This document shows, piece by piece, positions 3,287 through 32,244 of a stretch of DNA of 33,525 bases (its first letter is position 1; the number at the start of each line of letters is the position of its first letter). The translations under genes and the position numbers were made by a program. Source of the DNA: Accumulibacter sp. (GTDB lineage: Bacteria > Pseudomonadota > Gammaproteobacteria > Burkholderiales > Rhodocyclaceae). The notes beneath the pieces were generated by a model. That model searched no databases. It was not told the origin of the DNA and saw only the letters and a list, made by a program, of their open reading frames with translations. The stretch lies in the NCBI GenBank assembly GCA_031266435.1, contig JAISAZ010000004.1, forward strand, positions 1 to 33,525, in the 5' to 3' direction.

Positions 3287-6200
3287 ATGAGCTTGGGCCC
3301 TATTGATAATTCTACCGTTCCCTCCATTGCTACGCTTCTTGAATGGGTTAATAATGAAACTTATTACTCTGGATTGCCCGGTCGTGTAAACGGTCCGGCA
3401 GATGCCTACAGGCATATGCTCCTTGCTGCAGCTTTAGCTGTTATTTATCATGAGGGTGTCGCCAAAGCGATACTAAATGGCATTGAGAAATTTGGGGAGA
3501 TGAGGGACTATGGAGACGGTTCCCGTAGTGAAGCCGAGAGGAATGCCACAAAAATGGACGATATTAACAATGCAATTGGCATTGAAATTGGCTTGGAGGC
3601 CAGACGGCTAATGGAAGAATTTGGAGCTGACCAAGGAGATATGGGAGCGTGGATCCGGGAGCAGGTAAGAGCGGAATTTGAACAAGGTGGGGAACTGGGT
3701 GTGAATGGGGCGGATGGTCCGCGTTGGCTTTCGCCCGGCAACTGGGACAGAAATCCCAGAGACACAAGTGATCCTAAAGATCAAAGAGATAATGAAGGTA
3801 AACCGATTCCGACAAGTGAAACCAACTGGCCACCTATCTGGTGGTCTGATGGGAAGGCGTCGCCAGAAGCGTGGAAGTGGTGGAAGAATGGAGTCGGCGA
3901 TATCGCTCCCGAAATTTTGGTGCCCATGCCTGATCCTATCTTCAAGTTTTTCCCTGACCCATCCAATGAAGGACCGGGTATTAGCCCGTTTCAATGTACG
4001 CCTGAAGATCTGAATGGTAATGGTTTGCCTGACTGGCCTGCGCCGCCTATTCCAGGCTTATTCGACGATGCTCAAAAGTACTGGCAAGAAGTTCGTATCG
4101 ACCCCTTGGCCTTGGACCTCGACGGTGATGGGCTCGAAACGAGCAACTTCAACCTACAGAACCCAATCTGGTTCGATCATGATCTGAATGGCTCCGCCGA
4201 AGGCACGGGCTGGCTCAACAGCGACGACGGTTTTCTGGTGCTTGATCGAAACGGCAACGGAACGATCGACGACGGGTCGGAACTTTTCGGCGACCACACG
4301 CCGCTTTACGAAGGCGACGGAACTGCCGTCAACGGATTCGCCGCGCTGGCGCAAGAAGATACCAACGAAGACGGACTCGTCGATAATCAGGACGCCAACT
4401 GGAACGACCTGCGCGTCTGGCGCGATTTGAACCAAGACGGAATCAGCCAGTCGAACGAGCTCTTCACGCTGAGCGAACTCGGTATTCAAAGCCTCACGGT
4501 CGCCGCCGAAGCGGCGTCTCAATCGCAAGGCAACAACCAGATCAGCGCCACGGGAATCTTCACGTGGGAAGACAGCAGCGAAGGTATCGCAGGTGCGGGC
4601 CAAGCGGCCGACATCGATTTCTCCGTCGACACCTTCCATAGCAACTTTACCGACACGATTGAACTCGCCGAAGGCGTCGACGAATTGCCCGACCTAGGCG
4701 GGTCGGGCCTCGTGCGTTCCCTGCGCGAGGCCGCGAGCCAATCGACGCAGGTCAACGCGCTACTCACGCAATTCGCGCAAGCGACGACGCGCGCGGAACA
4801 AAACGGCATCATCGACCAACTCCTCCTCGCGTGGGCTGACACGTCAGGTCTAGCGGCGGCGATGGACGACCGCGACCCGGACAACTACCGGATGTACTAC
4901 GCCCAATTCGGCGCGATTCGGCGTGAGGATCATTACGTCACCTACCCCTCGTTTGTTAGCGGCCCCAGTGATGGCGGGAGCGGCGGAGGCAGTGGTATCG
5001 TCGGTGTGCTTATCCTCCCTTGGGAAACCGACGTTGAAAACGACATTGTGCTCGACGACGAATACCGTGCCCTGATCGACTCGTGGTCGAAACGCTTGCA
5101 CGTGCTCGAAGCGTTCAACGGGCGCTACTTTTTTGCGTTCCCGGAAGAAACCCAGGCAGGCGGGTCAGCGCGGACAGGGCTGAGCGCAGATTCAATGGTC
5201 TATTCGGTCGGGCAAACCACAAGCGGCGGCTACGGCTACTACGGTTATTCCCGCCAAGCCGTCGCTGTTGGTGACATTGACATTCCGATCACACTGAGCA
5301 TCCGGTTCCAGCAAGAGCAGCTCGACTCTCTTGGGAGAGCGTATGACATTCTGCGTGATCATGTTTATTCTATTCTGGCCTTGCAGACGCGGCTTCCCGA
5401 TTTGTTTGAATATGTTCAGACGGGTATTTCCGGTACAAAATTTGATCAAACCCTAGCTGCATTACTGGATGCGTCAGAATTATCTGAACTTTCGGAAACC
5501 GAGATGCAGGAGATTTTATTGTTGGCCGTAAATTCGTCAGTTATTTATGGCACTATCGAACTGCTTACTGAACTAGAAGATCGGATTGTCTCGAATCCCG
5601 CAGAAGGAGTAGGGGATTTATTGACGCTGATGCGTTATGTTCCCAAATTGAAAGACAACCCATACTGGGCTTCGTCGAGCCTCAAACTCCTGCAAAACGC
5701 CCTTGCGCAGAACGCGGACAATGCAAATATCCAGGCGGTACTCTCCGATAACTTCGTCAAGGTAGCAAACGGTAGCCCGATTATCCTTTATGGGAACGAC
5801 AGTTCTGGCATTGCATGGAACGACATCCTGATCGGGACTGCGGGTGCCGATATCCTGAATGGCGGGATAGGCGACGATTCCTTGGCGAGTGGTGCTGGAG
5901 ACGACCTTTTATATGGAGGCGCTGGCGACGATGTCCTGATGAGTGGCGCCGGAAATGATACTCTCTATGGCGACGTGGGCGACGACATTCTCGACGGAGG
6001 CGCCGGAAATGACCTATTGAACGGAGGTGCCGGAAACGACATATTCGTCTTCGGTACTGGCTACGACCACGATACCGTGATAACCGGCGACGCGGCGACG
6101 GACAAATACGACCTCATCAAACTGGTCGACCTGATGCCCGAAGACGTCGAATTCGGTATTCTCAGTGCTGGCAGTACCATAAACTTCCAGATACGGATTC

Positions 6201-9200
6201 TCGAAACGGGCGAAACACTGACTGTTATGCATGGTGCGCTCAACAATTACGGCGCCCAGATTCAAGGTATCGAATTCGCCGACGGAAGCCTGATGACGTG
6301 GGCGCAGGTGCTCTCCGTCGGCCTGCACGCCACATCGGGCGACGATAACCTGAGTCTACCCGGCGCCGGCGCCTACCATGCCGAAGGCGGCAACGACACC
6401 TTATTTGGAAGCGGCGGAAACGATACGCTTTTAGGAGGAGTGGGCCACGATGTCCTCTATGGACAGGACGGCGACGATATGCTTGACGGAGGCGCGGGGG
6501 TCGATTATCTGATCGGTGGCGCTGGCAACGACACCTTCGTTTTCGGGATCGGATACTACCACGACTTCGTAACGACCAACGACAGCAGCACCAACAAAAT
6601 CGACACGATCAAACTGATCGACCTAATGCCGGAAGACATAGAATTCAGTCTCATCAAAACCGACAACCGCCAAGACCTCCAGATCCGGATTATCGAGACC
6701 GGCGAAACACTGACGATTCAGGATGGCGCAAGCAACGGCTACGGCAATCAAATTCAGGTCATCGAATTCGGCGACGGGACGGAATGGACCTGGGCGCAAG
6801 TGACGCAAGCGGGCATGCGCGCCACATCGGCCAACGAAAACTTAAGCCTTTATCAATCCGGTGCCCTGTATGGCGAAGGCGGAAACGACTCTCTATGGGG
6901 AAGCAGTGCCGACGATAGTATTTACGGCGGTGACGGAAGCGACACGATCTTTGGTAGCGACGGCGACGACGTAATCGACGGCGGTGCGGGCATCGATTAT
7001 CTGTACGGCGGAGCTGGGGACGACACCTTCATCTTTGGCGTCGGCTACAGTCACGACTTCGTGTCGGCCAGCGACACTGGTGCCGACAAAGTTGACACGA
7101 TCAAACTCGTTGGCCTTCAGCCGGAGGATGTTGAATTCGGCGTCGTCATGAATAACGGATACCAAGACTTACAGATACGCATCAACGCTACCGGCGAGAC
7201 GATCACTGTCCAAAGTGGCGCGAGCAACGGCTACGGCAATCAAATCCAGATCGTCGAATTCGGCGACGGGACGCAATGGACGTGGGAACAGATCGTGCAA
7301 GCAGGCTTGCACGCCACATCGGCCAACGAGAACTTAAGCCTCTACCAGTCCGGCGCCCTCTACGGCGAAGGCGGAAACGATTCTCTCTGGGGAAGCAGCG
7401 CCGACGACAGTATTTACGGCGGTGACGGAAGCGACACGATCATCGCTAGCGACGGAGACGACGTGATCGACGGAGGTGCGGGCGTCGATTATCTGTACGG
7501 CGGAACCGGGGACGACACCTTCATCTTCGGCGTCGGCTACAGTCACGACTTCGTGTCGGCCAGCGACAACGGTGCTGACAAAGTTGACACGATCAAACTC
7601 GTTGGTCTTCAGCCGGACGATGTTGAATTCGGCATCGTCAAGAATAACGGAAATCAGGACTTCCAGATACGCATCAACGCCACCGGCGAGACGATGACCG
7701 TCCAGAGCGGCGCAAGCAACGGCTACGGCAATCAAATCCAGATCGTCGAATTCGGCGACGGAACGCAATGGACGTGGGAGGAAGTCATCCAGGCGGGTTT
7801 GCACGCCACATCGGGCAACGACACATTCACCCTCTACCAGTCCGGTGCTCTCTACGGCGAAGGCGGCAATGATTATCTGTACGGAAGTAGCGGCAGCGAC
7901 AGCCTCACCGGCGGCGACGGGAGCGACACGATCATCGCTGGCGGCGGAGACGACGTGATTGATGGTGGTGCGGGCGTCGATTATCTGAACGGAGGCACCG
8001 GCAACGATACCTTCGTCTTCGGCGTCGGCTACGGTCATGACTTCGTAACGATCAACGACAACGACGCCAACAAGATCGACACGATCAAACTCATCGGCCT
8101 CATGCCCGAAGACCTTGAATTCGGCATCGTCAAAAATAATACGAACCAAGACTTCAGGATACGCATCAACGCCACCGGCGAGACGATCACCGTCCAGAAC
8201 GGCGCAGCAAGCAATGTTTATGGCAACCAAATCCAGATCGTCGAATTCGGCGACGGGACGCAATGGACATGGGCGGAAGTCGTCCAGTCGGGCATGAACA
8301 ACGTCCCGAGCGGGAGTCTGACCCTGACGGGGCAAGCAGAACAGAACCAGACCTTGACGATCAGCAACGCGATCACCGACGTCGACGGACTGGGGGCCAT
8401 GTCCTACCAATGGCAAAGCTCAGCGGACGGAAGTACGTGGACGAACCTCGCCGGCGTGACCGGAACGAGCTACTCGCTGAGCCAAGCCGACGTTGGTCAG
8501 CGGATTCGCGTTATTGCGTCCTACACGGACGGCAGCGGCACGGCGGAATCGGTCATCGGCACGTCCACCTCGGTCATCGCCAACGTCAACGACGCCCCGA
8601 CCGGGACGGTCTCGCTTTCAGGAACGCTGGAACTGGGTCAAACGCTGGAAGCAAGCCATACACTCGCCGACATCGACGGACTGGGAACGGTCGGCTACCA
8701 ATGGCAGCGTTCAGCCAACGGAAGCACGTGGACGGATGTCGCTGGCGCGACCGAAGCGACGTATGTCCTCGGCCAAGGTGACGCCGGCAAACAGATTCGC
8801 GTCGTCGCGTCCTACATCGACGGTTGCGGCACGGAAGAATCGCTGATTACCGCGCCGACCTCGGTCGTCCCGGGCGACAGTTCCGGCGGCGGCAACCACG
8901 CACCAACCGGTAGCCTGAGCCTGACGGGTCAAGCGACCCAGCACCAAACCTTGACGGTGAGCAGTACGCTTGACGACGCCGACGGTCTGGGAGACCTGTC
9001 CTACCAATGGCAGTATTCCTTGGATGGAAATAGCTGGGCTGACATTGACGGTGCGACCGAGACGAGTTACACCCTCGAACAAAGCGATGTTGGGCAACAG
9101 ATTCGCATCGTCGTGTCCTACACGGACGATGGCGGCACGGAAGAATGGGTGCTCGGCGCAGCGACCTCGGCCATTGCGGACGTCAACGACGCGCCGGTGC

Positions 9201-11554
9201 TCGCTACCGCGATTACCGACAAAACGGCGATCGCACAAGCGCCCTTTAGCTTCACCTTGCCCGGAAACGCCTTTACCGACATCGACCCGGAAGACACGCT
9301 GACTTACAGCGCAACGCTGGAAGACGGATCGGCACTCCCATCGTGGCTGAGCTTCGACGCACAAACACGCACCTTCCAAGGCACCACCAGCGCGGCGGGG
9401 AGCCTCAACATCCAGGTTACGGCGACGGATACGGCAGGCGCATCCGTCTCCGATGTTTTTGCGCTCGTGATTCAAGCTTACAGCAATACCGTGGTCGGAA
9501 CCGCCAGTGGAGAAACGCTGAACGCCGGAAGCACAGGCTCCGCCGTGATGGGTCTCGGCGGGAACGACACTCTGACTGGAAGCAACGCCAGCGACGGCCT
9601 CTACGGCGGAGACGGCAACGACAGTCTCATCGGAAACGCCGGCAATGACATACTCGACGGAGGCGCCGGAAATGACACTCTGATCGGAGGCGCGGGGAAC
9701 GACACCTACGTCTTCAGCGTCGGCTACGGGAACGACACGGTCGATACCTACGAAACCACGGGCGGGAAGATCGACACGATCAAGCTCGTCGACCTCGCTC
9801 CAGAGGATGTCGAATTCGGGATCGTCAATCGCAACGGCAACCTGGACTTCCAGATACGTATTCTCGAAACAGGCGAGACGATGACCGTTTTGAACGGCGT
9901 GAACAGCGCGGTTGCTTACCAAATCCAGAAAGTGGAGTTTGGCGACGGGACGGAATGGACGTGGGCACAAGTCCTGCAAGCGAGTCTGCACGGCACGGCG
10001 AGCGGCGAGGCCCTGACGCTTCCCGGAGCGGGCGGACTCTACGGTGAAGGCGGGAATGACAGCTTGTATGGAAGCAACGCCAACGACGGCCTCTACGGCG
10101 GAGGCGGCAACGACAGCCTCATTGGAAACGGTGGCAATGACGTACTCGACGGAGGCGCCGGAAATGACACCCTGATCGGAAGTGCGGGGAACGACACCTA
10201 CGTCTTCGGCGTCGGCTACGGAAACGACACGGTCGACACCTATGAGACCACGAGTGGCAAGATCGACATGATCAAGCTCGTCGACCTCGCTCCAGAGGAT
10301 GTTGAATTCGGGATCGTCAATCGCAGCGGAAACCTGGATTTCCAGATACGTATTCTCGAAACAGGCGAGACGATGACCGTTTTGAACGGCGTGAACAGCG
10401 CGGTCGCTTACCAAATCCAGAAAGTGGAATTCGGAGATGGGACGCAGTGGACGTGGGCACAAGTCCTGCAAGCGAATCTGCACGGCACGGCGAGCGGCGA
10501 GGCCCTGACGCTCCCCGCGTCGGGCAAACTCTACGGCGAAGGCGGGAATGACAGCTTGTATGGAAGCAACGCCAACGACGGCCTCTACGGCGGAGACGGA
10601 AACGACAGTCTCATCGGAAACGCCGGCAATGACATACTCGACGGAGGCGCCGGAAATGACACCCTGAACGGAGGCGCGGGGAACGACACCTACGTCTTCG
10701 GCGTCGGCTACGGGAACGACACGGTCGACACCTACGAAACCACGGGCGGGAAGATCGACACGATCAAGCTCGTCGACCTCGCTCCAGAGGATGTCGAATT
10801 CGGGATCGTCAATCGTAGCGGAAATCTGGACTTCCAGGTCAGGATCAAAGCGACGAATGAAACGATGACTGTCCTGAACGGCGTGAACAGCGCGGTCGCT
10901 TACCAAATCCAGAAAATGGAATTTGGAGACGGGACGGAATGGACGTGGGCACAGGTTTTGCAAGCGGGTCTGCACGGTACAGCGAATGCTGAGTCCCTGA
11001 CGCTCCCCGGAGCGGGCGGACTCTACGGCGAAGGCGGGAACGACACTTTGAGCGGTAGCAATGCCAACGACGGCCTCTACGGCGGAGACGGAAACGACAG
11101 TCTCATCGGAAACGCCGGCAATGACATACTCGACGGAGGTGCCGGAAATGACTTTCTGGGCGGAGGCGTAGGGAGCGATACCTACCAATTCGGCGCAGGC
11201 TGGGGGCAAGACAGCCTCAGCGATTACGACGCCACGGCGGGAGTGATTGACAAGGCGCTCTTCGGCGAAGGAATCGCCTACGATCAACTGTGGTTCCAAC
11301 ACGTCGGAAACAATTTGGAAGTCAGCCAAATCGGAACGTCCGATAAGGTGACGATTCAGAACTGGTATTCTGGAGCGGCCTACCACGTCGAGCGCTTTGA
11401 AGTTTCAAGCGGGCAGGTACTACTCGATACGCAGGTCGAAGCACTGGTACAGGCGATGGCATCGTTCTCGCCACCGTCTGCGGGAGAGACAAGCTTGCCG
11501 CAGAACTATCAGGATGCGCTTCTTCCTGTGCTCGCGGCAAATTGGCAGGCTTGA
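3287..11554 (+). CDS. Giant RTX protein with FrpC-like self-processing module and Ig-like domains
   Basis: This is a ~2755-residue type I secretion substrate. Residues 1-272 form a distinct N-terminal domain with DAYRHMLLAA (39-48) and MDDINNAIGIEIG (90-102), the pattern of DUF6973-type domains, and a Trp-rich patch near 180-200. D272-P273 begins PLALDLDGDGLET, matching the FrpC self-processing module, with EF-hand-like loops (DRNGNGTIDDG, DTNEDGLVD, DLNQDGISQ) to ~450. A linker region (~455-840) follows. RTX nonapeptides (GGAGNDxLx) with haemolysin-related modules (EDVEFGIV...WTWAQV) span ~850-1670. Three Ig-like domains (SYQWQxSxDGxxWxxLxG) lie at ~1676-1968 and one He_PIG-like domain at ~1968-2063. 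More RTX units run to ~2640, then a C-terminal secretion region. Only two cysteines are seen (237, 1847). Family knowledge predicts Ca-dependent folding after export. The target is unknown. Confidence 0.93.
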   Translation: MSLGPIDNSTVPSIATLLEWVNNETYYSGLPGRVNGPADAYRHMLLAAALAVIYHEGVAKAILNGIEKFGEMRDYGDGSRSEAERNATKMDDINNAIGIEIGLEARRLMEEFGADQGDMGAWIREQVRAEFEQGGELGVNGADGPRWLSPGNWDRNPRDTSDPKDQRDNEGKPIPTSETNWPPIWWSDGKASPEAWKWWKNGVGDIAPEILVPMPDPIFKFFPDPSNEGPGISPFQCTPEDLNGNGLPDWPAPPIPGLFDDAQKYWQEVRIDPLALDLDGDGLETSNFNLQNPIWFDHDLNGSAEGTGWLNSDDGFLVLDRNGNGTIDDGSELFGDHTPLYEGDGTAVNGFAALAQEDTNEDGLVDNQDANWNDLRVWRDLNQDGISQSNELFTLSELGIQSLTVAAEAASQSQGNNQISATGIFTWEDSSEGIAGAGQAADIDFSVDTFHSNFTDTIELAEGVDELPDLGGSGLVRSLREAASQSTQVNALLTQFAQATTRAEQNGIIDQLLLAWADTSGLAAAMDDRDPDNYRMYYAQFGAIRREDHYVTYPSFVSGPSDGGSGGGSGIVGVLILPWETDVENDIVLDDEYRALIDSWSKRLHVLEAFNGRYFFAFPEETQAGGSARTGLSADSMVYSVGQTTSGGYGYYGYSRQAVAVGDIDIPITLSIRFQQEQLDSLGRAYDILRDHVYSILALQTRLPDLFEYVQTGISGTKFDQTLAALLDASELSELSETEMQEILLLAVNSSVIYGTIELLTELEDRIVSNPAEGVGDLLTLMRYVPKLKDNPYWASSSLKLLQNALAQNADNANIQAVLSDNFVKVANGSPIILYGNDSSGIAWNDILIGTAGADILNGGIGDDSLASGAGDDLLYGGAGDDVLMSGAGNDTLYGDVGDDILDGGAGNDLLNGGAGNDIFVFGTGYDHDTVITGDAATDKYDLIKLVDLMPEDVEFGILSAGSTINFQIRILETGETLTVMHGALNNYGAQIQGIEFADGSLMTWAQVLSVGLHATSGDDNLSLPGAGAYHAEGGNDTLFGSGGNDTLLGGVGHDVLYGQDGDDMLDGGAGVDYLIGGAGNDTFVFGIGYYHDFVTTNDSSTNKIDTIKLIDLMPEDIEFSLIKTDNRQDLQIRIIETGETLTIQDGASNGYGNQIQVIEFGDGTEWTWAQVTQAGMRATSANENLSLYQSGALYGEGGNDSLWGSSADDSIYGGDGSDTIFGSDGDDVIDGGAGIDYLYGGAGDDTFIFGVGYSHDFVSASDTGADKVDTIKLVGLQPEDVEFGVVMNNGYQDLQIRINATGETITVQSGASNGYGNQIQIVEFGDGTQWTWEQIVQAGLHATSANENLSLYQSGALYGEGGNDSLWGSSADDSIYGGDGSDTIIASDGDDVIDGGAGVDYLYGGTGDDTFIFGVGYSHDFVSASDNGADKVDTIKLVGLQPDDVEFGIVKNNGNQDFQIRINATGETMTVQSGASNGYGNQIQIVEFGDGTQWTWEEVIQAGLHATSGNDTFTLYQSGALYGEGGNDYLYGSSGSDSLTGGDGSDTIIAGGGDDVIDGGAGVDYLNGGTGNDTFVFGVGYGHDFVTINDNDANKIDTIKLIGLMPEDLEFGIVKNNTNQDFRIRINATGETITVQNGAASNVYGNQIQIVEFGDGTQWTWAEVVQSGMNNVPSGSLTLTGQAEQNQTLTISNAITDVDGLGAMSYQWQSSADGSTWTNLAGVTGTSYSLSQADVGQRIRVIASYTDGSGTAESVIGTSTSVIANVNDAPTGTVSLSGTLELGQTLEASHTLADIDGLGTVGYQWQRSANGSTWTDVAGATEATYVLGQGDAGKQIRVVASYIDGCGTEESLITAPTSVVPGDSSGGGNHAPTGSLSLTGQATQHQTLTVSSTLDDADGLGDLSYQWQYSLDGNSWADIDGATETSYTLEQSDVGQQIRIVVSYTDDGGTEEWVLGAATSAIADVNDAPVLATAITDKTAIAQAPFSFTLPGNAFTDIDPEDTLTYSATLEDGSALPSWLSFDAQTRTFQGTTSAAGSLNIQVTATDTAGASVSDVFALVIQAYSNTVVGTASGETLNAGSTGSAVMGLGGNDTLTGSNASDGLYGGDGNDSLIGNAGNDILDGGAGNDTLIGGAGNDTYVFSVGYGNDTVDTYETTGGKIDTIKLVDLAPEDVEFGIVNRNGNLDFQIRILETGETMTVLNGVNSAVAYQIQKVEFGDGTEWTWAQVLQASLHGTASGEALTLPGAGGLYGEGGNDSLYGSNANDGLYGGGGNDSLIGNGGNDVLDGGAGNDTLIGSAGNDTYVFGVGYGNDTVDTYETTSGKIDMIKLVDLAPEDVEFGIVNRSGNLDFQIRILETGETMTVLNGVNSAVAYQIQKVEFGDGTQWTWAQVLQANLHGTASGEALTLPASGKLYGEGGNDSLYGSNANDGLYGGDGNDSLIGNAGNDILDGGAGNDTLNGGAGNDTYVFGVGYGNDTVDTYETTGGKIDTIKLVDLAPEDVEFGIVNRSGNLDFQVRIKATNETMTVLNGVNSAVAYQIQKMEFGDGTEWTWAQVLQAGLHGTANAESLTLPGAGGLYGEGGNDTLSGSNANDGLYGGDGNDSLIGNAGNDILDGGAGNDFLGGGVGSDTYQFGAGWGQDSLSDYDATAGVIDKALFGEGIAYDQLWFQHVGNNLEVSQIGTSDKVTIQNWYSGAAYHVERFEVSSGQVLLDTQVEALVQAMASFSPPSAGETSLPQNYQDALLPVLAANWQA
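5888..8300 (+). repeat. First tandem array of 492-bp RTX units (five units)
   Basis: The phrase coding GEGGND starts at 6380, 6872, 7364 and 7856, exactly 492 bp (164 codons) apart; the equivalent of unit 1 is at 5888. Each unit holds RTX nonapeptides, an FxFGxGYxHD segment and one haemolysin-related module. Units 3 and 4 are nearly identical at DNA level. The last unit has one extra codon and ends at the Ig-like region. Confidence 0.9.
9551..11200 (+). repeat. Second tandem array of 492-bp RTX units
   Basis: The same phase point occurs at 9551, 10043, 10535 and 11027, again exactly 492 bp apart. The first three units are complete and close to identical in long stretches; the fourth stops after the nonapeptides and passes into the secretion region. 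Confidence 0.9.
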
Positions 11555-11796: not shown

Positions 11797-13995
11797 ATGA
11801 TCGAAGAGAGTAGCGATTCTCCGGAAATCGTCTCTGAAGTTTTGCGGAAGGATTCGCCGCCCTTGCCGGACACGGGGCTGATCGGGCTCGTGATGCTGGC
11901 CCGGTTTCACGGCGTCGCGGCTGAGCCGGAACAATTGACGCACGAGTACGGCGAATCCGGCAAGCCTTTTGGCGTGCCGCAAATACTGCTCGCCGCCAAG
12001 CACCTCGGACTCAAGGCACGGAAAGTGCATACCGACGCGTCGCGCCTGGATCGCACGCCTTTGCCGGCGTTGGCGATCGACCTGGAGGGGAATTTCTTCA
12101 TTCTCGCCCGAATCGACGCTTCACCGGAGAAAAGTCAGGTTCTGATCCAGGACCCGCGCGCGCAGCGCCCGCAGGTTTTGCCGCTCTCCGAATTCGCTTC
12201 CCGCTGGAGCGGTGACCTGATCCTGTTCACTTCGCGCGCGTCGCTGGCCGGCGAATTGGCCAAATTCGATTTCACCTGGTTCATTCCGGCGCTCGTCAAA
12301 TACCGGAAACTTCTGCTCGAAGTCTTTACGGTTTCTTTCGTCCTGCAACTTTTCGCTCTGGCGACCCCGCTTTTCTTTCAGGTCGTCATGGACAAGGTCT
12401 TGGTCCACCACGCCTTGACGACGCTGGATGTCATCGCGATCGGCCTGTTTGTCATTTCCGTTTTCGAAGTCGTTCTCTCGGGTTTGCGTACTTTCGTCTT
12501 CGCGCATACGACGAGCCGAATCGACGTTGAACTCGGCGCGCGGCTTTTCCGGCATCTTTTGAACCTTCCTCTCGCTTACTTCCAGGCGCGGCGCGTCGGG
12601 GACACCGTCGCCCGCGTCCGCGAGTTGGAGAACATCCGGCAGTTTCTGACCGGGAACGCGATTACCTTGGTTCTCGACCTTTTCTTCTCGGTTGTTTTCA
12701 TCGCCGTCATGCTTTTGTACAGCGGCTGGCTGACGCTGATCGTCGTCCTTTCGCTGCCGTGCTACGCCGCGCTTTCGTTTTTCATCACGCCGCTCCTGCG
12801 CGCGCGTCTGCACGAAAAATTCAATCGCGGCGCGGAAAACCAGGCTTTCCTCGTCGAAGCCGTCAATGGCATCGACACCCTGAAGGCGATGGCGGTCGAG
12901 CCGCAGTCGACCCGGCGCTGGGACAAGCAACTTGCGGGCTATATTTCCGCGAGCTTCCGAACGGCGACTCTGGGAACGATCGCGCATGAAGGCGTCAATT
13001 TCATCGGGAAACTCGTTACCGTCTTGACGATGTGGGTCGGCGCGCGCCTCGTCATCGGCGGCGACCTCTCCGTCGGGCAGTTGATCGCTTTCAATATGCT
13101 GGCTGGGCGCGTCGCCTTGCCCGTGATGCGCCTCGCGCAGTTGTGGACGGATTTCCAGCAGACGGGCATTTCGATTCAACGCTTGGGCGATATATTGAAC
13201 GCGCGTTCGGAAACTGTGCGCGCGAACGGCACGCGCAGCGTCCTGCCGAGAATCGCGGGACGGATCGAATTCGACCAGGTCAGTTTTCGTTACCGGCCGG
13301 ACGGGCAGGAGGTTCTGCGCGGGATCAATCTTTGCATCCAGCCCGGTGAAATCATCGGCCTCGTCGGGCGGTCGGGTTCCGGGAAAAGCACCTTGACCAA
13401 GCTGGTCCAGCGCCTGTATCTCCCGGAACGCGGTCGCGTCCTCGTCGACGGCATGGATCTCGCGGTCGCCGATACGACCTCGTTGCGCCGCCAGATGGGC
13501 GTCGTACTCCAAGAAAATATGCTGTTCAACCGCAGTATCCGCGAAAACATCGCGCTCGCCGATCCGGGACTGCCGATCGAGGCCGTCATACAGGCCGCGC
13601 AACTCGCGGGGGCGCACGAATTCATCCTGGAATTGCCGGAAGCCTATGATACCGTCGTCGGCGAGCACGGTTCCACGCTTTCCGGCGGGCAACGCCAGCG
13701 CATCGCCATCGCGCGCGCCTTGATTACGAACCCGCGCATTCTCATTTTCGACGAGGCGACGAGCGCGCTGGATTATGAATCCGAGCATGTCATACAGCGC
13801 AATATGAAATCGATCTGCCGCGACCGAACGGTACTCGTGATCGCGCACCGCTTGAGCGCCGTGCGCGATGCCGACCGGATCATCGTCATCGATCGCGGCC
13901 AGATCGTCGAAGAAGGAACGCATGACGAATTGATACGCCGCGAATCGGGCCATTACGCGCACTTGTATTCCCTGCAGCAGAGGGACGACGCATGA
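11797..13995 (+). CDS. Type I secretion ABC exporter (HlyB/LapB type, permease-ATPase)
   Basis: This 732-residue protein has the three-domain order of RTX exporters. Residues ~20-150 are a C39-peptidase-like domain whose catalytic Cys position reads PDTGLIG, so it is the non-cleaving HlyB-type version. Residues ~165-455 are the six-helix ABC transmembrane domain. The ATPase domain follows, with Walker [13 protein letters not shown], signature [15 protein letters not shown], Walker [13 protein letters not shown] and switch VIAHRLS. In the family it energises one-step export of RTX proteins through HlyD and TolC partners. It follows the RTX gene after a terminator. Its TGA stop overlaps the ATG of a short frame inside the repeat element that leads into the HlyD gene. 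Confidence 0.96.
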
Positions 13996-14100
13996 TTCCA
14001 TTTCCAGTTCCTCCCTTCCTTCGTCGTCTTCGCCTTGCCGTACTGCCTGTACTGTCCGCGGCTCGGCATCAAAGCATGAATGAACTGGAAAAGGAATGAG
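13992..14100 (+). repeat. 108-bp dispersed element, copy A (between ABC exporter and HlyD genes)
   Basis: The left end TGATTCCATTTCCAGTTC contains the exporter stop codon. The right end GAACTGGAAAAGGAATGAG contains the HlyD start codon. The two ends are imperfect inverted repeats of about 20 bp. From ATG 13992 an open frame of 36 codons including the stop crosses the whole element, beginning [10 protein letters not shown] and ending MNELEKE. Its TGA overlaps the HlyD ATG as ATGA. Confidence 0.85.
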
Positions 14101-15538
14101 ATACCCGCAGAGCCTCGCGCTTTATTTCGACGCCTTGAAAGACTTCGGACGGCGTTATCGTGAAATCTTCCGCATCGTCTGGGCCGAGCGGCACGCGCTC
14201 GATACGACACCACGGCTTCGACACGAGACCGAGTTCCTCCCCGCCGCGCTGGAGCTTCAGGAAACGCCGGTTTCTCCCGCGCCGCGCGTGGCGATGTGGC
14301 TGCTCATCGCCTTTGCCGCCATCGCCGTGCTCTGGTCGATCTTCGGTCATATCGACGTCGTGGCGAGCGCGCGCGGGAAGACCGTTCCGAGCGAAGGGTC
14401 GAAAGTCGTCCAGCCGATGGAGACGGCTGTCGTCCGTACGATTTACGTCAAGGATGGGCGAGAGGTCAAAAAAGGCGATATCCTGATCGAACTCGACGCG
14501 ACCGCCACGTCCGCCGACGCTGCGCGGCTGGATAACGATACGCTGACGAATCGCTTGCAGGCCGCGCGCTCCAGGGCGTTGCTCGACGCGATCGACGCGC
14601 GCAAGCCGCCGAAGCTCGCGTCGATGCCGGACGTCCCGCAGGAACGTTATCGGCATGAGCAGCGCGTGCTCGAGGGGCAATACGGTGAATTCCAGAGCCG
14701 CCTTTCCCGGATCGAAGCGGAAATCGAGCGGCGCGACGCCGAGTTGCGCTCGACCCGGGAAATCGTCAAAAAACTCGAAAAAACCGCCCCGATCGCGCGC
14801 CAGCGCGCGCGGGATTACAAGCAGCTCGTCAATGAAAAATTCATGTCGCAGCACGGCTATCTGGACAAAGAGCAGCTTCGTATCGAGCAGGAGGCCGATC
14901 TGGCCACGCAGCGCGGCAGGGTTCAGGAGCTTCAGGCCGCGCTTCAGGAAGGACACGGCGAGCTTTCCACGCTCATCGCCGAAACGCGCCGAGTAGCTTT
15001 CGATACGTATAACGATGCTTCGCAGAAAGCGACGGCGAGCGAACAGGAACTTATCAAGGCCAATATCCGAAATCGCCAGATGACGCTCGTCGCGCCCGTG
15101 GACGGCACGATACAGCAGTTGGCCATTCATACCGTCGGCGGCGTGGTCACTCCAGCGCAGCCGCTCATGATCGTCGTTCCGAAGGACGCGCCGCTAGAGG
15201 TCGAAGCCTTTCTGGAAAACAAGGACATCGGTTTCGTCAACCCAGGTCAGGATGCCGAAATCAAGGTCGAGACTTTTCCGTTTACGCGCTTTGGGACGAT
15301 TGCCGCGAAGGTCATCAGCGTTTCTCACGACGCGATTCTCGACGAAAAGACCGGGATGCTGAGCTATTCTTCACGTTTGCAGTTGTCCAAACCGACCATG
15401 CAGATCGGCGAAAAAACGATCCGCCTCACTCCCGGCATGGCGGTGACCGCCGAAATCAAAACCGACCGCCGGCGCGTTATCGAGTATTTCCTCTCACCGC
15501 TCATCCAGTATAAGCAGGAGAGCTTGAGGGAACGATAA
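14096..15538 (+). CDS. HlyD-family type I secretion periplasmic adaptor
   Basis: This 480-residue protein has a cytoplasmic N-terminus of about 60 residues and a single TM helix at ~66-84 (MWLLIAFAAIAVLWSIFG). After the TM comes GHIDVVASARGKTVPSEGSKVVQPME, the first lipoyl half. A long coiled-coil hairpin (~145-320, rich in Glu, Arg and Gln) follows. The second lipoyl half is APVDGTIQQLAIHTVGGVV. Beta-barrel segments end in TPGMAVTAEIKTDRRRVIEYFLSPL, typical of HlyD. The family bridges the inner membrane ABC exporter to TolC. The ATG lies in the right end of repeat copy A, and no other in-frame start is near, so the element appears to supply its start codon. Confidence 0.96.
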   Translation: MRYPQSLALYFDALKDFGRRYREIFRIVWAERHALDTTPRLRHETEFLPAALELQETPVSPAPRVAMWLLIAFAAIAVLWSIFGHIDVVASARGKTVPSEGSKVVQPMETAVVRTIYVKDGREVKKGDILIELDATATSADAARLDNDTLTNRLQAARSRALLDAIDARKPPKLASMPDVPQERYRHEQRVLEGQYGEFQSRLSRIEAEIERRDAELRSTREIVKKLEKTAPIARQRARDYKQLVNEKFMSQHGYLDKEQLRIEQEADLATQRGRVQELQAALQEGHGELSTLIAETRRVAFDTYNDASQKATASEQELIKANIRNRQMTLVAPVDGTIQQLAIHTVGGVVTPAQPLMIVVPKDAPLEVEAFLENKDIGFVNPGQDAEIKVETFPFTRFGTIAAKVISVSHDAILDEKTGMLSYSSRLQLSKPTMQIGEKTIRLTPGMAVTAEIKTDRRRVIEYFLSPLIQYKQESLRER

Positions 15539-15539
15539 G

Positions 15540-15640
15540 TGTCGATTCCATTTCCAGTACCCTTGGTCGACTTCGCCTTGCGGCATGTAGATACTGCGAA
15601 GTGGCTTGTGCTTCCTGAGCATGAGCAAACTGGAAAGAAC
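15540..15640 (+). repeat. Dispersed element, copy B (diverged, after the HlyD gene)
   Basis: GATTCCATTTCCAGTA begins within a few bases of the HlyD TAA. The interior keeps GTCGACTTCGCCTTGC, and the right part keeps AACTGGAAA, but the terminal GGAATGAG is degraded. It is recognisably the same element with more substitutions and small indels than the other three. Its frame stays open from GTG 15539, but no downstream gene starts at its right end. Confidence 0.65.
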
Positions 15641-20874: not shown

Positions 20875-20981
20875 CTCATTCCTTTTCCAGTTCATTCATG
20901 CCGAGAAGACGAGCCGCAGACAGTACAAGTAGTACGGCAAGGCGAGTCGACGATGGAAGGGATGGACTGGAAATGGAATCA
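20875..20981 (-). repeat. Dispersed element, copy C (after ygfZ, reverse orientation)
   Basis: Read on the minus strand, TGATTCCATTTCCAGTCC starts with the ygfZ stop codon, and the right end GAACTGGAAAAGGAATGAG is identical to copies A and D. The length is 107 bp, one base shorter than A and D because one T is missing in the CGACTTCGCC segment. This breaks the through-frame. On this strand no gene follows; beyond it lies the 3' end of the convergent ARH gene. Confidence 0.85.
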
Positions 20982-21980
20982 GATTTCAAGCGCTTCGACG
21001 GAATCAAAAAGCTGACCGCTTTCCGAGCGGATTCCGCCCGCTTGGGCGGCTTCGTCCAGAAGGACGCCGAGCGCGTCGAACCCGCCTTCGGGCGACGGCG
21101 CCGCGCAGACGAGCGTTCCGCAAGCGGCTTCGGCGCTGTAAACGGGTTCGCCCGCGCGCGCCGATGCCTCGGTGTGAAGACGGTAAAGGTGGCGTTTGAG
21201 CCGACCGAGGTATTGCGAGCGCGCGACGACTTCCTGTCCGGGATAACAACCTTTGGTAAAGCTGACGCCGCCGATTTTTTCGAAGCCGAGCATTTGCGGC
21301 ACGAATTTTTCTTCGGTCGCTTGGGTGATCCACGGGATCCCGGCACGGATGTCGAGCCACCGCCACGCGGGAACACCGACCGGCGTCGCTTTTCCGGCAA
21401 GTTTTTTCCAGACTCCCCTTGCGGCGTCCGCCTGGATCGCCGCGATGTAGCGCCGATCCTCAATGCGGATGAGCGTTCCGCCGTCGAATTTCGCCGTCCC
21501 GGTCAGTGGGACGGGCAGGGCGGCGGCGCGGAGGACTTCGGGCGCGTCGGGTCCGGAAACGCCGAAGAGCGCGATGGCGTCCGATTCGTCGGATAGCTCG
21601 ACTTTCGATCGCAGAACATACATCCGCAAACGCTTTATCGTCGTTGCGAGCAGGTCGGCGGAGAGCAGGGCGTGGTAAGCACCCTGATCCCGATAGAGGA
21701 TGAAATTCGCAAGCATCCGCCCTTGGGGCGAACACCACGCGGAATATTGAGAGGCGTCGGCGCCGAGGCCTTCAACGTCGCTCGTAAACAAATTGTGCAA
21801 ATAGGTCTTCGCGTCGTCCCCGGAAAAGCCGACGACGGAAAGATGCGTGAGCGGCGAGACGACCGTCGCGTCGCGCGCAAGTCTGCTTTCGACGATTTCA
21901 GAGCCGAAAACCAGGTGGCCGCTTTCTTCCGTGCGCGCGCCCGCGCTTGCGAGAAATTCAAGCCAGGAAATTTTCGCCAT
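20979..21980 (-). CDS. ygfZ: Folate-binding protein YgfZ (GcvT-like)
   Basis: This 333-residue protein contains the YgfZ hallmark KGCYPGQE within FTKGCYPGQEVVARSQYLG, including the conserved Cys. The N-terminal GcvT-like fold is supported by THLSVVGFSGDDAKTYLHNLFTSDV and SPQGRMLANFILYR. In other bacteria YgfZ binds tetrahydrofolate and supports repair or assembly of certain Fe-S enzymes. The ATG at 21980 begins MAKISWLEFLASAGA. The gene is divergent from mltG, a common betaproteobacterial arrangement. Its stop codon is the first codon of repeat copy C, so the element sits immediately at the 3' end. Confidence 0.95.
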   Translation of the reverse strand: MAKISWLEFLASAGARTEESGHLVFGSEIVESRLARDATVVSPLTHLSVVGFSGDDAKTYLHNLFTSDVEGLGADASQYSAWCSPQGRMLANFILYRDQGAYHALLSADLLATTIKRLRMYVLRSKVELSDESDAIALFGVSGPDAPEVLRAAALPVPLTGTAKFDGGTLIRIEDRRYIAAIQADAARGVWKKLAGKATPVGVPAWRWLDIRAGIPWITQATEEKFVPQMLGFEKIGGVSFTKGCYPGQEVVARSQYLGRLKRHLYRLHTEASARAGEPVYSAEAACGTLVCAAPSPEGGFDALGVLLDEAAQAGGIRSESGQLFDSVEALEI

Positions 21981-23271: not shown

Positions 23272-23380
23272 GTGATTCCATTTACAGTTCATCCCTTCCT
23301 TTGTCGACTTCGCCTTGCCGTACTACTTGTACTGTCTGCGGCTCGTCTTCTCGGTATGAATGAACTGGAAAAGGAATGAG
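23272..23380 (+). repeat. 108-bp dispersed element, copy D (between mltG and tmk)
   Basis: It starts 5 bp after the mltG TAG, with TGATTCCATTTACAGTTC, and ends with GAACTGGAAAAGGAATGAG, in which the ATG is the tmk start. From GTG 23272 a frame of 36 codons including the stop is open across the element, ending MNELEKE, with its TGA overlapping the tmk ATG. It is the same length as copy A and differs from it at about 15 positions. Confidence 0.85.
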
Positions 23381-31761: not shown

Positions 31762-32175
31762 TTAGCTTACTGAGTCGTTATTGACAAAGTATTTTTTGTA
31801 GAACTCATTATAATCGTAGAACAAGATGACCAGACAGCCGAATCCAAAAAACAGTATTCCTGAAATTCCTGCAAAAGTTATCAGATTGAAACCAAAACCA
31901 TCGTAAACAAATATTATGCATATCAAGGTAAATGAACACGAGCCTGAGGCATAAACATACCGGATCGTTTTGTGTTTTGCCAATGCCTCGAACATATCCT
32001 CTTTATAGAATAATTCCGTAATTGCCACGGAAACAAGTACGATACCGAAGGCCATGACCGCCATAACCTGATAATCGAATTCATTTTTGATAAAAATCTG
32101 CCTGAAACAGGCATAAAAACAAAATACCCCTGCCAAAAACAGAAGGACATAGGGTGTTTTTTTAAGGAATTTCAT
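31762..32175 (-). CDS. Small polytopic membrane protein, unknown function
   Basis: This 137-residue protein has about four hydrophobic helices: TPYVLLFLAGVFCFYACF, a second near MAVMAFGIVLVSVAI, a third near GSCSFTLICIIFVYDGFG, and a fourth at ISGILFFGFGCLVILFYDY. I recognise no family. ATG 32175 is preferred over an in-frame start 33 bases upstream, which lies within the IS630 tail. The DNA is AT-rich compared with the thioesterase that follows, which suggests recent acquisition. It begins only a few bases after an IS630 3' end, as the DUF898 gene does on the left. Confidence 0.65.
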   Translation of the reverse strand: MKFLKKTPYVLLFLAGVFCFYACFRQIFIKNEFDYQVMAVMAFGIVLVSVAITELFYKEDMFEALAKHKTIRYVYASGSCSFTLICIIFVYDGFGFNLITFAGISGILFFGFGCLVILFYDYNEFYKKYFVNNDSVS

Positions 32176-32181
32176 ACTGAA

Positions 32182-32244
32182 GAATCCACAAAATAGTGCG
32201 CATATCATGCAACGGCATAGAGAACATGTTGTTCGTGAAACAGG
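32182..32244 (-). mobile_element. IS630 3' end, copy 2 (63-bp remnant)
   Basis: On the minus strand, CCTGTTTCACGAACAACATG begins a match to 1534-1596, with the same final codons (LFHEQH.LYAV) and the same tail containing GCGCACTATTT. The rest of the transposase is absent. It lies between two membrane-protein genes. Confidence 0.8.

Follow-up and report, generated by a model that had tools for sequence, protein, structure and literature searches.

Contig JAISAZ010000004.1 of an Accumulibacter sp. assembly (GCA_031266435.1) contains, within the 33,525-bp stretch analysed here (the window), four copies of a short inverted-repeat element. These copies, labelled A to D, lie beside genes that include those for an ABC exporter, a HlyD-type adaptor and thymidylate kinase (tmk) (Table 1). 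Very probably, the element is a non-autonomous miniature inverted-repeat transposable element (MITE) of ~100 bp that is moved in trans and inserts at TNA, with most copies being bystanders to the genes around them. Judged by sequence comparison, its interior is the core of the Correia elements of Neisseria, while its terminal repeats differ entirely.

A preliminary description of this DNA had listed four repeats of about 108 bp. All four are real copies; the length given there counts, along with the element, the two copies of the target and a single additional base. Copies A, C, and D are close to one another in sequence, each flanked by a 3-bp duplication whose two sides agree (TGA/TGA in element orientation); copy B is decayed, and the CGA flanking it looks like a mutated TGA. 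As had been noticed, each copy stands at or within a few bases of a stop codon. The distance is 0 nt in A, where the stop TGA is itself the duplicated target, and in C, which abuts the stop of a minus-strand gene that we take to be YgfZ-like; it is 4 nt in B (from TAA to CGA) and 6 nt in D (from TAG to the target). The right ends of A and D do supply the ATG of the next gene (HlyD at 14096, Tmk at 23376), which is composed of the last A of the element and the duplicated TG, and the GTGA at the left of D is a probable former tmk start. Both copies are crossed, open and in phase, by a frame of 36 codons that counts the stop; it begins with ATG in A and with GTG in D because the left site copy there is GTGA.

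Table 1 Coordinates of the element copies, their target copies, and the core in the window.
Feature	Position	Strand	Context
Copy A, full-length element of 101 bp (TTCC..GGAA)	13996-14096	+	Between ABC exporter gene (PF00664/PF00005) and HlyD-type adaptor gene (PF13437)
Left target copy TGA of A	13993-13995	+	Stop codon of the exporter gene
Right target copy TGA of A	14097-14099	+	With A14096 reads ATGA, start of the HlyD gene
Copy B, degenerate element	15546-~15637	+	3' of the HlyD stop TAA (15536-15538); partial hidden Markov model match 15547-15636
Copy C, 100-bp element	20879-20978	-	Left end adjoins the stop of the minus-strand gene 20979-21980 (PF01571)
Copy D, full-length element	23276-23376	+	Between YceG/MltG-type gene and thymidylate kinase gene (tmk)
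Left target copy TGA of D (GTGA context)	23273-23275	+	
Right target copy TGA of D	23377-23379	+	With A23376 reads ATGA, start of tmk
Correia-type core CCTTGCCGTACTACTTGTACTGTCTGCGGC inside copy D	23313-23342	+	Exact match; core common to other genera

Orthologues of the HlyD gene were sought in four relatives and none was close (best 31% identity). Directly before the exporter and adaptor genes lies a very long predicted gene (4106-11554) with repeats mostly at 492-nt spacing and nine copies of a 300-nt unit. It is RTX-like by eye and its product is a probable type I secretion cargo. A DDE_3 transposase gene fragment at 1238-1573, presumably of IS630 type, is linked at its tail to a site close to the opposite contig end by a 70-nt inverted repeat (1534-1603 and 32175-32244). 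Both are perhaps remnants of one insertion sequence (IS).

Copies in the genome and insertion at TNA

The assembly comprises 2.66 Mb in 121 contigs, of which our profile search covered 771,101 bases (91 stretches around matches together with the window). At least 139 copies were found, 112 of them full-length; this is a lower bound for the genome, with some copies lying outside the sampled stretches. The 27 partial copies are excluded from every placement count given here, and placements refer to genes called by our own gene caller rather than to a curated annotation. Genome-wide, the terminal-repeat pattern gave 284 matches and the reversed pattern none, and a core pattern (up to three mismatches) gave 56 against 0 for its control. 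The element proper runs from TTCC to GGAA with arms of ~18 bp and ends of the form TTCC[A/T]TTTCCAGTTCA (also written TTCC[A/T]TTTCCAGTTCAT), and is mostly 100 bp (41 copies) or 101 bp (37 copies) long.

Directly outside these ends is a 3-bp duplication whose two sides agree in 74 of the 112 full-length copies and which in every one of those has the form TNA (TGA 41, TCA 25, TTA 5, TAA 3). Sequence preference extends beyond the TNA to approximately CGTYTNARACG, which in the first 95 copies was the same from both sides without symmetrising. The weight matrix behind the target-weighted stop expectation given below was symmetrised by us; the unsymmetrised table derives from those 95 copies.

Comparison with the nearest genome, a sister labelled G024, reveals insertions that are polymorphic. 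Three insertions correspond to empty sites there, with a single TGA where the window's genome has two; the surroundings are letter-perfect at L225:5027 and L231:4900 and carry nearby changes at L190:4004. Shared placement is also seen: the stretches taken from G024 yielded 29 usable full-length copies, and 11 of these occupy the same places as in the window's genome. The junction that holds copy D in the window (YceG/MltG gene to tmk) is without the element in G024 (L280), where it is otherwise altered too. G024 includes a contig deposited as Accumulibacter sp. Gx485_bin129 (G024:C106; the L340 sequence lies inside L138), which puts the window's genome in the same genus as that metagenome-assembled genome.

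The element is short, is bounded by terminal inverted repeats, has no transposase gene inside, duplicates its target, and is polymorphic in its insertion, as is general for MITEs; its TNA duplication is that of IS5-family MITEs. The ISL2- and IS1031-type groups of the IS5 family use TNA targets. We propose that a transposase working in trans, most likely of IS5-family type, recognises the TTCC[A/T]TTTCCAGTTCA ends and inserts the element at an approximately palindromic site resembling CGTYTNARACG; the central TNA is duplicated. A sister family with the same core has ends that match an IS5-family element (see below), but no IS with the window family's own ends was found.

The core and the ends around it

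Correia elements have been studied as a feature of Neisseria since the 1980s. The middle of the Accumulibacter element, CGTACTRYTTGTACTGTCTGCGGC, has the same 24-base centre as Neisseria elements of published Correia (CREE) size, the conserved core of Correia elements. The preliminary description knew of no described element with this design and remarked in passing that Correia-type elements are of similar size; given this interior, the first statement is not supported and the remark was nearer than realised. A scan of named genomes for the core returned at least 102 stretches, mostly from Neisseria and 26 by title from elsewhere, and the non-Neisseria stretches among the matches listed come from Crenobacter, Aquitalea, Pseudogulbenkiania, Cupriavidus, Acidovorax, Keguizhuia, Nitrosomonadaceae, Accumulibacter, and others. 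Ends could be assigned for 101 of the 104 Neisseria sites, with 80 beginning TATAG; the lengths cluster mainly at 104-109 bp (40) and 152-159 bp (38), in agreement with the published Correia size classes. We take these Neisseria rows to be Correia elements on the basis of size, copy number, and the Correia sequence.

Like the short form of CREE (NEMIS), the element is bounded by inverted repeats and exceeds 100 copies per genome around the same 24-base centre. It differs in its ends (TTCCATTTCCAGTTCA, against the Correia TATAGTGGATTAAATTT seen in the Neisseria rows), in its target (3-bp TNA, against TA), and in its lineage, an Accumulibacter-type genus. Its length, mostly 100-101 bp without target copies or 103-104 bp with one, lies near the shorter of the Correia size classes of 104-108 and 153-157 bp given in excerpts of PMC2649163. 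Correia elements are further marked by promoters at their ends, an IHF site, and service as an RNase III substrate. Those excerpts state that the Correia repeat had until then been found only in Neisseria and that, as of 2009, its mobiliser was not established. A MITE that combines the Correia core with other ends and another target would appear to be new, and we found no description of the core outside Neisseria in the open-licence PubMed Central literature.

Two other groups of betaproteobacterial repeats, compared by description only, may be relatives of the core elements. BRE, a repeat of ~90 bp from Bordetella and other genera (excerpts of PMC3110155), is likewise present in many copies across several Betaproteobacteria, mostly intergenic, and mobile-like, but it is described as GC-rich (69%) and arranged in tandem as a variable number tandem repeat, whereas the element's copies are dispersed. 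The MITEs of Polaromonas and Ralstonia are named in a review (excerpts of PMC10969869) and are alike in being MITEs of Betaproteobacteria.

Of 399 genomes sampled from the order, 30 carry the core (17 of 159 genera and 12 families, the window's own genome included). Sampling from the class gave matches in 2 of 369 genomes, both inside the order, and none in the 365 outside it. A reversed core gave 0 among the genomes listed. Searched among phages, a 49-base core query matched only one phage (two records) over half of the query at E 0.3; among plasmids it matched 12 records, nine with at least 80% query cover, and two are gonococcal records of chromosome size. The terminal repeat of the window's family gave two short plasmid matches (E 0.1 and 0.5) and none in viral contigs. 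Within the window's genome the core is variable. A changed core (CTTGCGGCACGTAAGTACTG.. or CTTGCGGGACGCGAGTACTG..) replaces CTTGCCGTACTACTTGTACTG.. in a subfamily (e.g., L225:5027, L203:4004, L212:3918, and L167:4004), and is present in at least 16 of the 112 full-length copies, a further 14 copies not being parsed.

Ends around the core vary by family. They were found for 47 of 55 non-Neisseria rows, the other eight having no clear ends, and include AGAGCCGCTAACAAAACCC, GGAGGCCGTTTCAAAATGA, AGAGACGCTATCAAAATGA, TAGAGAATCGCCTAGGAATT, and TATAGTGRACTGCGTGAA in addition to those of the window's family; somewhat similar TTCC.. ends also occur in L087 (Nitrosomonadaceae) and L271. Ends of the AGAGCCGCTAACAAAACCC type agree in 21 of 21 letters, target letters counted (E 0.1 alone), with the end of an element that is annotated as IS5-family on plasmids of Xanthomonas and Edwardsiella. 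The same repeat stands at the other end of that element, identical in one and with two mismatches in the other. No core-like sequence was found in it within six mismatches, so that in this family the core is enclosed by IS ends, and that IS offers no evident source for it. Such common ends were seen for the sister AGAGCCGCTAACAAAACC family; no partner was found for the window's family.

How one core came to lie between unlike ends can be explained in two ways. We see close to an even chance that the shared core reflects only ancestry and horizontal transfer, its ends having drifted or been swapped along with transposases and the core itself being unselected. MITEs move between species, the core was confined to one order among the sampled genomes, and the bases beside it (GTTGC.., ..GCGCC) are alike in many families, as descent predicts. 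Against this, a drifting core would be expected to change no more slowly than ends on which transposase recognition depends.

The other explanation, possible though we hold it tentatively, is that the core is a functional module (a structured RNA, or a DNA hairpin or protein site) that benefits the element or its host and is carried by successive IS-type ends. The recurrence of the same 24 bases in many genera within unlike ends is consistent with this, as is the lack of a core in the IS5-family element with matching ends. Pairing around the core points the same way. We aligned 54 distinct rows (alignment A1), picked by core match with up to four mismatches; Neisseria rows were limited to eight and to those whose core starts CC. 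An 8-bp collar around the core varies in its letters while often keeping its pairing. It had 58 two-sided cells where shuffles gave 25.3 ± 3.8 (0/500), with pairing of 87.0% against 80.3% and a covariation score of 0.203 against 0.107; slid versions of the collar reached at most 52.2% pairing and 29 cells. These shuffles ignore relatedness among rows.

Several observations count against a functional core. The rows were selected by core match, so constancy of the core is partly built in, and the two collar measures least prone to false alarm did not rise above shuffles (two-sided-change pairs, 6 against 5.0, 73/500; further pair types, 21 against 20.7, 279/500). For these two reasons we set the likelihood of a functional core lower and that of plain ancestry higher. 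When pair independence was examined in 155 sites (104 from Neisseria), most collar pairs in the Neisseria rows were near independence, and the collar is poor in the window's own family. RNAalifold chose a different fold, and Rfam gave one sub-threshold match for five core loci, ~1.8 kb away from the core, and no gathering-level match anywhere in the window. The changed core in some of the window family's own copies also argues against function. Two core positions were seen to differ jointly in L068:1101, L264, L251, and L236 (TTGCC..TGTCTG against TTGTC..TGCCTG); L076, L271, and L074 change the first position only, so any joint constraint on the two is loose. On balance it is conceivable, if somewhat less than an even prospect, that the Correia core is an independent, hairpin-capable module of Betaproteobacteria with a pairing collar, repackaged repeatedly between the ends of different IS5-type transposons.

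Stop codons, start codons, and the neighbouring genes

Stop codons received 33 of the 112 full-length insertions and start codons nine, seven at the right end (A, D, L176, L233, L326, L185, and L231) and two at the left (L317 and L318). Since TGA and TAA both fit TNA, the duplication restores a targeted stop codon on the near side of the element. The element ends in GGAA, and a duplicated TGA behind it therefore reads ATGA, so that an NTGA start hit by an insertion keeps an in-frame ATG. The purine-rich GGAAAAGGA precedes this restored ATG and might act as a weak ribosome site. Neisseria REP2 / CREN is a repeat that brings a ribosome site just upstream of an ATG. An excerpt of PMC2649163 (a note to its Table 1) mentions one CREE whose last A is the A of an ATG.

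That insertion can spare both neighbours, as first proposed from the window, is directly visible at L231:4900. Compared with the empty site L360, a GTGA stop/start overlap took the element there, both frames are intact, and the start is now ATG. The stop/start-bridging look of the element is therefore explained by a TNA target and a terminal A. The share of start codons (9/112) is not significantly above the 4.8% expected (p 0.12), which implies that starts are tolerated rather than sought, and the majority of copies, in 3' and intergenic DNA, are probably tolerated bystanders.

Some results weigh against regarding the element as a MITE with mostly passive copies. The share of stop codons exceeds the TNA null of 7.3-7.6%, or 10.5% when target-weighted. 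The left end faces the stop in 27 cases and the right end in 7 (p 0.0008), including the stops at 13993-13995 and 20979-20981 in the window; the non-shared copies of G024 give 7 against 2, and both genomes together 34 against 9 (p 0.0002), whereas TGA was counted 20 times and TCA 19 times at sites outside stops and starts. Simple tolerance does not account for the stop excess and the orientation bias. In addition, the flanking trinucleotides are unlike in 38 of the 112 copies, presumably through mutation, and some other comparisons with G024 produced unclear gaps (5, 25, and 71 bp). Four DDE_Tnp_1 (PF01609) matches were found in the genome, none with the element's ends, other transposase families not being searched; a partner IS could be missing from the assembly, which is in 121 contigs. 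Much of the stop excess would seem to be general crowding just after genes. Within 30 bp downstream of genes, 34 ends lie at the stop and 19 elsewhere, stops making up 51% of the sites there (p 0.07). With the excess shrinking in this way, a stop-specific targeting mechanism is not claimed.

Stop placement with its orientation bias over the two genomes could instead reflect selection of the element beside stops as a 3'-end processing signal, either an RNase III-type hairpin or a terminator. Strong predicted folding relative to shuffles (z of -3.5, -3.7, and -3.3 for A, C, and D, and -2.4 for B) and the cleavage of Correia RNA by RNase III, reported in excerpts of PMC2649163, fit such a role. 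We consider it unlikely, as the element ends without a T-run, insertions in the 30 bp downstream of genes do not clearly favour the stop beyond its share of sites, and better-than-shuffle folding carries little weight because any inverted-repeat element folds so.

The preliminary description envisaged an element suited to sitting between operon genes, its short frame coupling their expression. Orientation counts of the flanking genes are even (++ 29, -- 27, -+ 26, +- 24, contig edge 6), leading us to reject an operon-specific design. Of the 112 copies, 38 keep the frame open and in phase, and in the first 95 it was not favoured between co-directional genes (10/25, against 26/70 elsewhere, p 0.81) and was rarer beside stops (4/24 against 32/71, p 0.015). 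Coding selection on the frame was likewise rejected: the commonest length, 100 bp, breaks it, and core changes in 35 copies of 101 bp are synonymous in 79 of 222 cases (0.36, against a random expectation of 0.32). Open frames fused to genes have been described for a 107-bp Correia form (excerpts of PMC2229807).

Coupling itself could occur at a handful of loci. At the few start-codon copies the old start may possibly translate a 35-residue leader ending in the real gene's ATGA. The left target copy reads ATG or GTG in all seven right-end start insertions, which thus retain the native start, and the frame is open and in phase in five of them (A, D, L176, L233, and L231), against 33 of the other 105 copies (Fisher p 0.043; 5/6 against 31/89, p 0.028, in the first 95). 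These p values are uncorrected for multiple tests, the numbers are small, and a looser rule that also admits starts as far as 60 nt into the ATGA frame gives 6/11 against 32/101 (p 0.18). Selection of the frame such that ribosomes from the upstream gene or the old start reach the downstream ATGA and restart is, in our assessment, quite improbable. In addition to its lack of enrichment between co-directional genes, its lack of a synonymous excess, and its loss at the commonest length, the frame is broken and out of phase at the start insertion L326, and broken at the ATGA overlap of L224, provided that the start there is the element's ATG. G024 keeps the frame in 6 of 29 copies and in neither of its two start insertions.

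As a MITE with mostly bystander copies, the element provides a clean example of how a TNA preference and one terminal base (GGA-A) result in landing on stops and starts with both genes unbroken. The occurrence of its core in MITEs with other ends in 12 families offers comparative material on the mobiliser of Correia elements and the role of their core, and the one core-MITE type with IS5-family ends is a lead for the mobiliser. If the core is indeed an independent module, it would not be specific to Neisseria, and selection would be keeping the core rather than the ends, for a function that nobody has so far assigned.

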